Below are positions 61,069 through 64,000 of a stretch of 64,000 nt of DNA, in pieces. The stretch is taken from contig NZ_LN889764.1 of assembly GCF_900009145.1 (NCBI RefSeq), positions 112,528 through 176,527 on the forward strand, read 5' to 3'. The translations under genes were made by a program, and so were the position numbers. Under the pieces are notes generated by a model. It did no database searches, was not told the DNA's origin, and worked only from the letters and a program-made list of their open reading frames with translations. Position 1 is the stretch's first letter; each line of letters starts with the position of its first letter. Source of the DNA: Planktothrix tepida PCC 9214 (GTDB lineage: Bacteria > Cyanobacteriota > Cyanobacteriia > Cyanobacteriales > Microcoleaceae).

Positions 61069-61850
61069 TTGAGTCGGTTTAAAAAACAAACAGCGATTGA
61101 ATTATTTGCTGGAATTGGTGGTTTTCGTTTAGGGTTAGAAGCCAGTGGAATTCAAACGATTTGGGCGAATGATATCAATGAATTGTGTTGTCAAGTTTAT
61201 CAAAGCAACTTTGGTCAAAATTCTATTGTATTAGGAGATATCCAAAGTATCAATTTAGCGGATATTCCTGACCATGATTTATTAACCGCAGGATTTCCCT
61301 GTCAACCCTTTAGTGCGGCGGGCAAAAAATTAGGAATTCGAGATCAATTTCGCGGAACCCTATTTGAAAAAATTGTAGAAATTATAGATACTAAAAAACC
61401 TCACTATTTTTTGTTGGAGAATGTTAAACGTATTTTAACAATGGAACAGGGACACCATTTTAAAGTGATTTTAAATGCTTTAGCGTCTCTCAATTATTTG
61501 ATTGAATGGCGCATTATTAGCCCTATTAATTTTGGGATTCCTCAAAACCGTGAGCGTATTTTTATTTTTGGATCTCGCTGTAAATCGGATTTTAACCCTA
61601 TAAATTTAGAAGATCATTTAATTTTTTTAAATCAAAGCGAGACTGAATACTTAAATTTTGATTTCGAGAATTTTGAAAAATATTTATATCCTATTTTAGA
61701 TTCCCCGATTAAAAATTATCCTTGGGGAATTGCTTATCAAAATAAAATGTATAGTCAATCTCTCCCCTCATTTCCTGATATCTATCCCCCTACGCGATTA
61801 AAAAATATTCTTCAATCTGAATCAGAAGTTGAGCCTCAATTTGATTTTAC
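61069..61850 (+). pseudogene. DNA (cytosine-5-)-methyltransferase, N-terminal part, interrupted by IS element
   Basis: A TTG start with AAGGAG eight bases upstream opens a C5-methyltransferase: motif I AIELFAGIGGFRLGLE, motif IV GFPCQPFSAAGKK (nucleophile C78), motif VI FLLENVKRI, motif VIII PQNRERIFIFG. The native frame runs to ...PQFDFT at 61850; the annotated frame continues artefactually into the element to 61941. The C-terminal part is at 63603-63996. Joined, they give 391 residues in one frame. No restriction enzyme gene is visible. Split as it is, the enzyme lacks motifs IX and X and should be inactive. Confidence 0.92.
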
Positions 61851-61867
61851 AATAACCGTATTCAAAG

Positions 61868-61888
61868 CCCACGTCTTTCAAGCGTGGG
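61868..61888. repeat. left-end hairpin of IS element
   Basis: CCCACG and CGTGGG separated by nine bases, 17 bp inside the left end. A second small hairpin (CCGCC-TTTA-GGCGG) follows at 61900-61913. These are probable TnpA recognition structures on single-stranded DNA. Confidence 0.8.
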
Positions 61889-61921
61889 ATGTAGAATACC
61901 CGCCTTTAGGCGGAGTGAAGG

Positions 61922-62320
61922 CTAGTGAGAGTTTTGGTTAGCAATATACTTTTTGATAGTTTCACTAGAAACAGAACCAGCCGTCCCACAATAATAGCTT
62001 CGACTCCACAAAGAAGGTAGTTTAAGTAAATGAGGAAATTCTTTTCTTAATATTCTTGATGATGCCCCTTTGATTCTGAACATAATTTGATGTGGAGCAA
62101 TCAAAGGGTGACAACTAATAAATAAATGCACATGATCAGGCATTATCTCCAGAGCTAGGACATCACATTCTAGCTCTTTTGCTTTTTGGTAGATAATTTC
62201 CTCTAATCTTCTGCTCACTCCGTTAACCAACACCCTTTTCCTCCTTTTTGGGCAAAAGACAAAATGATAGTTGATCAGACTAACTGATGTGTTTTTTCTT
62301 CTATATTGATTTTCTGTCAT
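61922..62320 (-). CDS. tnpA: IS200/IS605-family transposase TnpA (Y1 HUH)
   Basis: A 132-aa single-strand transposase with the HUH motif HVH (res. 63-65 in MPDHVHLFI) and the catalytic tyrosine Y125 (SSETIKKYIAN). N-terminal VSLINYHFVFCPKRRKRVL and the middle MFRIKGASSRILRKEFP are characteristic. All catalytic residues are intact, so the element is potentially active. Its start lies 36 bp from the divergent tnpB start, implying a shared promoter region. Confidence 0.96.
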   Translation of the reverse strand: MTENQYRRKNTSVSLINYHFVFCPKRRKRVLVNGVSRRLEEIIYQKAKELECDVLALEIMPDHVHLFISCHPLIAPHQIMFRIKGASSRILRKEFPHLLKLPSLWSRSYYCGTAGSVSSETIKKYIANQNSH

Positions 62321-62355
62321 TGTCGATACACACGATTCATCAACCTTATGTTATC

Positions 62356-63582
62356 ATGGATGACATGACAAAAATAACTCGGACGATTAAATTGAAATTC
62401 GTGGATCTCAACCGTTGTAAAGCTCAGGTGTTTGAGCAAATGACGGCAGAAAACACACGGGTTGCCAACAAGCTGTTGTCATTGCCGATTAAAGAACGGC
62501 GTAAAATGACAACAGCTAAAATTATGTCCGAGTTAAAATCTGCCCTTGTTAACCAAGTAATCCGACATACCACATCACCCACAGGTCGTAAAACCAAACA
62601 ATATAAAGTTCTTCCTGTGGAAGTTAACAACCAAAACTGGAAGTTAACCCTAAAAGGGAATACTTATTCAATTAGTTTTCCAACCCTTAAAGGTGAAAAA
62701 AGAATTCCCATTGAAGTTGCATCTCCCCATTGGCAACCTGTTTTAGACGGATTGTTAGAGGGAACAATTCAAGGGGGTTCTTTTAAATTAATTAAACATC
62801 GAAATAAGTGGTATGCCTATCTGTCAATTACTGAGGATGTTCCAGAAGTTAAGACGGAGAAAAGATTAGGATGTGACCGAGGACAGAATAATTTAGCGGT
62901 AGTTGCACCTAAACAGGGTTTTGGTAAGTTCTTTAATGGTCAAAGCGTTAAGCATCGGAGACGTTATTTTCAACAACGAAGAAAACAACTTCAAGAAGCT
63001 AAAAAGTTTCGAGCATTAAAGAAATGGGACAAAAAAGAACGACGATGGATGGATGCAATCAATCATACAATCAGCCGTCGAATTGTTCGTTTTGCCGAAT
63101 ACCATAATGCTGATGTTGTTATTGAGGATTTAGAAGGATGTCGAAGCACAATGAAACAGAGCCAAAAATCTCGTTCTGATTCCGGTGAATCTCGACATAA
63201 TTGGTCTTATTATTCTTTGGAACAGAAACTTAATTATAAGTTGGCTCTTAAAGGATTGAAATTAATTAAAAGACCTGCGCCATACACTTCCAAATCCTGT
63301 TCAACCTGTGGTTTTATTGGTAAAAGAAATCGACATGATTTCAATTGCCCTAATGGTCACTACCATAACTCTGATTTGAATGCTGCGAAAAACCTAGCTC
63401 AATGGGACGGTTTTTCTTGTCAGTTAGACCTACAGAGAGATGCTTCTGTAATGGATTCATCCGGTTTAACTGATGGGGTGCTTGGCACACCCCTGAACTC
63501 GGTGAATACAGTCAAACAAGAGTATATTCAACTGTCTCTGCTTGACTGGACTAGATACGAGAATCCCACCCCTTTAGCGTAG
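62356..63582 (+). CDS. tnpB: IS605-family TnpB (RNA-guided nuclease, Fanzor/Cas12 ancestor)
   Basis: A 408-aa TnpB: N-terminal wedge/REC region (ITRTIKLKFVDLNRCKAQVF), RuvC residues D174 (LGCDRGQNNLAVV), E257 (VVIEDLEG) and D340 (HNSDLNAAKNL), and a zinc motif CSTCGF...FNCPNGH in which the fourth ligand appears to be His, not Cys. The start is taken at MDDMTKITRT; ATG at 62365 is also possible. The stop lies inside the right-end hairpin, where the guide (omega) RNA is expected to end. Appears catalytically intact. Confidence 0.94.
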   Translation: MDDMTKITRTIKLKFVDLNRCKAQVFEQMTAENTRVANKLLSLPIKERRKMTTAKIMSELKSALVNQVIRHTTSPTGRKTKQYKVLPVEVNNQNWKLTLKGNTYSISFPTLKGEKRIPIEVASPHWQPVLDGLLEGTIQGGSFKLIKHRNKWYAYLSITEDVPEVKTEKRLGCDRGQNNLAVVAPKQGFGKFFNGQSVKHRRRYFQQRRKQLQEAKKFRALKKWDKKERRWMDAINHTISRRIVRFAEYHNADVVIEDLEGCRSTMKQSQKSRSDSGESRHNWSYYSLEQKLNYKLALKGLKLIKRPAPYTSKSCSTCGFIGKRNRHDFNCPNGHYHNSDLNAAKNLAQWDGFSCQLDLQRDASVMDSSGLTDGVLGTPLNSVNTVKQEYIQLSLLDWTRYENPTPLA

Positions 63583-63622
63583 CGCAGGGGTGGGAGTGTC
63601 AACACAGATACTTTAGAACGGA
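63450..63622 (+). ncRNA. predicted omega RNA (TnpB guide RNA) spanning tnpB 3' end and right end
   Basis: In characterised IS200/IS605 elements the guide RNA scaffold comes from the 3' end of tnpB plus the right-end hairpin, and the guide is the flanking host DNA. By position the scaffold here ends at TCAA (63602) and the guide begins CACAGATACTTTAGAA at 63603. The 5' limit is a guess. Inferred from family knowledge, not seen directly. Confidence 0.5.
63565..63594. repeat. right-end hairpin of IS element
   Basis: A perfect 8-bp stem CCCACCCC/GGGGTGGG with a 14-nt loop, four bases before the terminal TCAA. The right-end TnpA-binding structure and probable end of the guide RNA scaffold. Confidence 0.88.
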
Positions 63623-63996
63623 TTAAAAACAGTAAAGCAGTTAATCGCTATTGTAATGGTGTGGAAATTTTATATAACCAAGATGGGGGTGCAAGGTTAG
63701 GGTATACTATTTTTGGTGTTAATGGAGTTGCTTCTACTTTGACCGCATCCACTTCCAGACATTATGAACGATATCAAATTGGGAATAAATTTAGACGATT
63801 AACGCCGATAGAATATGCACGTTTAATGGGTTTTCCTGACAATTGGTGTCGAGTTGCTAAAATTTACGATCAATATGCTTTATTTGGTAATGCTGTTGTT
63901 ACCATTTGTATTGAATGGATTTGTCAAAGAATTGGGCAAAAAAATATAATAATCACACCTAAAAAATATCAACAACTCAGTTTATTTACTAGCTAA
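63603..63996 (+). pseudogene. DNA (cytosine-5-)-methyltransferase, C-terminal part
   Basis: The continuation of the gene begun at 61069. From the junction codon it reads T-D-T-L-E-R-I-K, then the end of the target recognition region, motif IX/X sequence (YQIGNKFRRLTPIEYARLMG, FPDNW, QYALFGNAVVTICIEWICQR) and stop at 63994-63996. It lacks its own start and catalytic motifs. It is in frame with the N-terminal part once 61851-63602 is removed. Confidence 0.92.
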
Positions 63997-64000
63997 ACCC

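Follow-up and report, generated by a model that had tools for sequence, protein, structure and literature searches.

The closest described relative of the element analysed here is IS608, for which the left and right guides are AAAG and GAAT, the cleavage sites are TTAC and TCAA, and C is favoured as the base after TTAC (accessible text of PMC5934647). For ISDra2, TnpB is described to cut the donor joint under guidance of the flank beside the right end, and restoration of the element by homology-directed repair has been proposed (PMC8612924, accessible part), while according to a preprint, also available in part, IS200/605 TnpB behaves as a gene drive in plasmids (PMC11870625). Within the genus Planktothrix, IS200/IS605 is the top IS family with 30% of the IS element copies, and the accessible part of the survey that reports this does not mention an insertion in a methylase gene (PMC9366434). 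Here we analysed a 64,000-nucleotide stretch of the genome of Planktothrix tepida PCC 9214 (the window), near the end of which such an element splits a C5-cytosine methylase gene. The most informative new fact about this locus concerns the putative methylase, the surviving member of a type II restriction-modification pair that has been dismantled; the element itself is ordinary.

Table 1. Features of the interrupted methylase locus in window coordinates.
Feature	Position	Strand	Basis
C5-cytosine methylase, 5' part (codons 1-260 and two bases of 261)	61069..61850	+	Pfam, joined frame
TTAC target and left cleavage site (host DNA, left flank)	61847..61850	+	16/16 copies; TTAC of IS608 (PMC5934647, accessible part)
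IS608-like IS200/IS605-family element, complete, 1,752 bp	61851..63602	+	16/16 full-length copies identical, ends alike
Left end: guide AAAG (61864-61867) directly 5' of hairpin CCCACG...CGTGGG (61868-61888)	61864..61888	+	sequence, fold
tnpA, Y1 HUH transposase, 132 aa	61922..62320	-	Y1_Tnp, NF033573, 2a6m
tnpB, RNA-guided nuclease	62365..63582	+	NF040570, homologues
Right end: guide GAAT (63561-63564), hairpin (63565-63594), TCAA (63599-63602)	63561..63602	+	sequence, fold
C5-cytosine methylase, 3' part (last base of codon 261 to codon 391 and stop; motif IX/X blocks)	63603..63996	+	Pfam, joined frame
Endonuclease gene relic (37-codon 3' piece, first two bases in window)	63999..64000	+	similarity to G009 enzyme

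The initial annotation had placed the element exactly between TTAC and TCAA at the coordinates of Table 1; these coordinates check, and the boundaries are independently fixed because the 16 full-length copies in the same genome (6.78 Mb in 191 contigs) are 100% identical and share the same ends, the other eight of the 24 matches being partial. All 16 have TTAC on the left and a terminal TCAA, followed at this locus by CACAGATACT outside the element, and their flanks differ from copy to copy; the identity of the copies could partly be a product of repeat assembly. Insertion occurred 3' of TTAC without target duplication, as observed for all 16 copies and for the uninterrupted site of G002, the nearest congener by methylase gene, which is collinear over the joint. 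The first base 3' of TTAC is C in eight copies, T in five, G in two and A in one. When folded as single-stranded DNA, both ends of the element are more stable than 200 out of 200 shuffles (z of -4.76 for 61847-61920 and -3.88 for 63540-63602). The guides, hairpins and cleavage sites agree with those of IS608 (PMC5934647, accessible part), and the IS608-like identity given in the initial annotation, that is, membership of this group of the IS200/IS605 family, is well supported by these sequence features; precise excisability, claimed there as well, would be expected by analogy with the mechanism published in the same source. The TTAC of the left flank is the expected TAM of TnpB, the right end (63561-63602) presumably corresponds to the 3' part of an omega-RNA scaffold, and about 16 bases from 63603 onwards would serve as the TnpB guide; an Rfam scan around the locus gave no omega-RNA or other family above the gathering score.

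In G002, we identified at least one full-length copy of the element (92%) at another site and at least one 56-bp fragment, both counts being lower bounds with eight candidates scored per genome. Given the 16 identical copies and this diverged copy elsewhere in a genome with an uninterrupted methylase, the spread of the element and the present insertion look recent, and the element is apparently mobile. Other matches are shorter. The best matches at one further locus of the same genome (L017) and in five congeners (L096-L100, from G007, G008, G003, G001, and G004, respectively) start at approximately position 485-514 and consist of tnpB and the right end, to which a short left end is added in some; most of tnpA is absent, and tnpB-only derivatives thus seem to be frequent in the genus. 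Fragments of 26-89 bp from single element ends at L018, L019, L020, L023, and L024 of the own genome are possible remnants or non-autonomous derivatives. The plasmid collection yielded no match spanning 80% of the element.

The tnpA product is a single-domain Y1 HUH transposase matched by Pfam Y1_Tnp (E 1.1e-39), NF033573, and the ISHp608 transposase 2a6m (E 2.5e-27), and the HVH motif and tyrosine Y125 named in the initial annotation are found at residues 63-65 and at the C-terminal position 125. The start of tnpB was taken from homologues; the longest open reading frame begins at 62287. Its product scores 140.1 bits against NF040570 (guided_TnpB, cut-off 100), and its RuvC segments LGCDRG and NSDLNAA align with those of 8j3r (MGIDLG and NADYNAA), while the glutamate within VIEDL was assigned by eye. 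The zinc ribbon (CPNGH/CPHGH) is without the usual fourth cysteine, which we considered as a sign of a broken TnpB and rejected, as the same feature is common to all ten related loci with a match covering the ribbon; the most distant of them is a 68% relative in G037, where it reads CPHGH, and the ribbon is thus a lineage-wide variant. Comparison with the G002 copy gave dN/dS values of 0.081 for tnpA and 0.125 for tnpB, and these low values together with the identical copies point to recent mobility.

The frame of the 5' part of the methylase gene continues within the element, ending at 61941. Removal of the element in a script gave a single 391-codon frame from a TTG start at 61069 to 63996, reading FDFT-TDTLER over the joint, as the initial annotation had described; the restored frame adds no weight, since every clean insertion, once removed exactly, leaves its target frame whole. 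The methylase is of the dcm type (TIGR00675), with Pfam DNA_methylase hits in each of the two parts (E 1.4e-62 and 9.9e-11), the blocks of the 5' part running from LFAGIGGF at residue 12 through NFGIPQNRERIF at 154-165. The claim that the rejoined enzyme has all C5-methylase motifs needs a reservation for motif X, in which residue 361 is T, as against P in all 25 aligned orthologue rows (23 distinct, since contigs G020/L059 and G021/L060, judged by their length, were each entered twice). This alignment comprised full-length genes only; L073, L075, L084, and L085, which are partial methylase matches, some of them perhaps at contig ends, were left out. The effect of P361T is uncertain, because the residue aligned in M.HhaI is I; as to a second inactivating change, the joined gene has this substitution and neither a stop nor a frameshift. 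Changes polarised by four congeners number six nonsynonymous and 11 synonymous on the own branch and six and nine on the G002 branch (seven sites unresolved, first five codons excluded), and dN/dS is 0.14-0.21 across the six computed pairs. An open joined gene with own-branch changes resembling those of the G002 branch is as expected for a recent break, and the insertion is the only visible sign of decay in the methylase, again in line with a recent event. The 3' part lies in the frame of tnpB, a one-in-three coincidence, and is open from just after the tnpB stop (63580-63582), with 21 bases from that stop to the first methylase codon at 63604.

Uninterrupted methylase orthologues occur in five of the nine other genomes of the genus (G001, G002, G005, G006, and G009), at 87-98% protein identity to the 5' part in the window, and the insertion is absent from all five. 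At the DNA level, the G002 gene is 96.1% identical, and its alignment runs gap-free across the joint. The empty site sought in relatives therefore exists and is best read as never inserted, although a scarless excision would look alike. As for the remaining congeners, G003 carries a deleted remnant of the gene, and G004 (73% complete), G007, and G008 have distant methylase paralogues only. Close named relatives of the methylase are those of Planktothrix rubescens PCC7821 (87%) and of uncultured Oscillatoriales (91% and 87%); the phage and plasmid collections gave methylase relatives only, all below 60% identity. In Hydrocoleum sp. CS-953 (L074:1613-3223), segments of the methylase gene are repeated and frame-shifted.

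Two bases past the methylase stop, we identified the relic of an endonuclease gene (L086:5027-5137, corresponding to window 63999-64109), which retains 37 of 218 codons and matches residues 182-218 of the G009 enzyme with 94.6% identity (E 1.2e-17); in a second search it was recovered with E 4.1e-16 over 39 codons as aligned. The own genome has no match to the full endonuclease gene other than this relic. A methylase with an adjacent cognate endonuclease, which defines a type II restriction-modification system, is thus found in G009 and not in the own genome. An endonuclease homologue with a length of about 220 aa is encoded directly 3' of the methylase in eight (L058, L059, L061, L064, L065, L066, L067, and L089, the latter from G009) of 13 loci examined, a subset of those retrieved. 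All three proteins scanned were above the cut-off of NCBIfam NF052465 (type II endonuclease) and were recognised by PADLOC as REase_II; a Pfam scan of the endonuclease protein matched no model. The ORF at L063, one of nine first aligned, proved to be an unrelated protein (21% identity), and the second endonuclease alignment was made without it. The methylase had been regarded as a plain solitary gene, an interpretation dropped after the conserved ORF downstream had turned out to encode its partner endonuclease.

Among the nine congeners, the endonuclease gene is whole in G009 only, and it is whole in other genera too. G003 retains 33 codons, G001 and G002 retain 10 and nine terminal codons (E 1.9 and 5.8, meaningless alone), and G001, G002, G005, and G006 show DNA matches of 55-71 bp to the gene end and further. 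The own relic is longer and cannot stem from these shorter ones, thus the endonuclease was presumably lost more than once, or its end was exchanged by recombination. In other genera, endonuclease homologues with in-frame stops occur at L110 (G015, three stops), L109 (G023, one), and L111 (G018, one), which shows that this restriction system has decayed repeatedly. Since G001, G002, G005, and G006 hold an intact methylase gene without the nuclease, the enzyme may serve some independent function, and losing it here would not necessarily be neutral.

We propose that, with high probability, the locus reflects the recent insertion of an active IS608-like element into the leftover methylase of a decayed restriction-modification system, with the interrupted state favoured. 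By parsimony, the endonuclease would have been lost first and the methylase hit later, and deletion of the nuclease would explain why a methylase knock-out is tolerated. The active element would have entered the gene by single-strand peel-and-paste insertion 3' of its TTAC, apparently recently, and most likely inactivated the methylase. TnpA, if active, could in principle remove the element precisely and so repair the methylase frame; an active TnpB with its guide taken from the flank 3' of the right end would then be expected to cut the empty site, and the element would be copied back from the sister chromosome, which would favour the interrupted state. The locus would thus illustrate, in readable form, how a restriction-modification system decays step by step: the nuclease is gone, and the methylase is kept in several congeners and is then interrupted here by a mobile element.

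A more passive interpretation, in which a plain dead pseudogene holds an immobile element, would be in line with the several relatives that have a partial or broken methylase or nuclease, but it is unlikely in view of the identical copies and the low dN/dS of tnpA and tnpB. Conversely, the two methylase pieces might still function together, assembling into a split but active enzyme like the naturally two-part M.AquI. The break at codon 261 falls between the conserved blocks at 154-165 and 325-339, which we take to be motifs VIII and IX. The same inter-block region gave the best fragment complementation of M.SssI and contains the split point of M.AquI, and M.SssI fragments complement despite short foreign tails and the loss of a few residues (PMC3404938, accessible part). 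However, the earliest in-frame ATG, GTG, or TTG of the 3' part is the GTG at 63661 (codon 281), which leaves 19 codons missing, while the M.SssI pair 1-239 and 246-386, six residues short, was already ineffective (same source). Promoter-like sites at the locus are at chance level (10 found, 9.4 expected), and terminator-like sites are likewise not above chance. Lacking a canonical start before codon 281, the split methylase is unlikely to be active, and we regard this arrangement as highly improbable.

The initial annotation had interpreted the locus as a possible reversible epigenetic switch, in which excision in some cells would turn the methylase on and give a mixed methylation state. Spelled out in full, excision would act in some cells or chromosome copies, reinsertion or TnpB-driven copying would turn the methylase off, and the resulting mixture would be used. 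The exact ends, the intact-looking tnpA and the restorable frame speak for it, as do donor-joint formation and excision during normal growth, described for an ISDra2 derivative whose tnpA was driven by an inducible promoter (PMC2806898, accessible part). "Precisely excisable", however, is to be expected of any clean IS200/IS605 insertion and by itself makes no switch. Only the inserted state is present in the assembly, in which the excised joint has no match at up to two mismatches, albeit an assembly is blind to minority states. TnpA targets any TTAC, about 53,000 of which are estimated per genome by scaling window counts on both strands, and therefore has no way of choosing the methylase site and provides no programmed return. 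A TnpB above its family cut-off with a dN/dS of 0.125 suggests that excised alleles should be selected against, in keeping with their expected elimination by this nuclease (PMC8612924, accessible part). Moreover, the rejoined enzyme carries P361T, none of the five congeners with the gene has the insertion, and the partner nuclease is gone. Nor does the methylase look special as a target, since eight of the 16 copies, i.e., this one and seven others, lie in frames that stay open for 81 codons or more on both sides (next-best frame pairs at the 16 sites sum to 11-79 codons). In a Pfam scan of ten pieces from ten other copies, seven matched families of diverse function and three none; separately, another copy adjoins an open frame of 390 codons at L015:331-1500 that encodes a caspase domain (Peptidase_C14). 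We therefore consider the switch very unlikely and do not adopt it as the main explanation; excision would be a rare reversion rather than a demonstrated toggle. In a related scenario that we find scarcely credible, TnpA excision in a multi-copy cell would yield active methylase alleles that TnpB with the matching guide resets by cutting and copying; if true, this would produce transient methylation pulses limited by an RNA-guided nuclease targeting the methylase gene. Should excised alleles prove frequent, the locus would offer a simple test bed for TnpB retention in a chromosomal gene with a 5mC readout.

Among the matches listed in our literature search, which covered few subscription papers, we recognised no account of an insertion-element methylase switch or of this locus; the locus can be compared with three known systems. 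With IS608 of Helicobacter pylori, the element shares a Y1 HUH TnpA encoded with tnpB, TTAC/TCAA sites, AAAG/GAAT guides, end hairpins, and C as the most frequent base following TTAC; the host and the sequence differ, and here the element is present in 16 identical copies, one of them within a methylase gene. Phasevarions resemble the locus in that a methylase could conceivably be on or off, but they typically rely on repeat slippage or site-specific recombinases (PMC12707154, accessible part), whereas no programmed reversal is visible here. With the type II pair of a TIGR00675 dcm-type methylase and an NF052465 endonuclease, the locus shares an orthologous methylase and the endonuclease remnant directly downstream, whereas it differs in that the endonuclease is cut to 37 codons and the methylase is interrupted.
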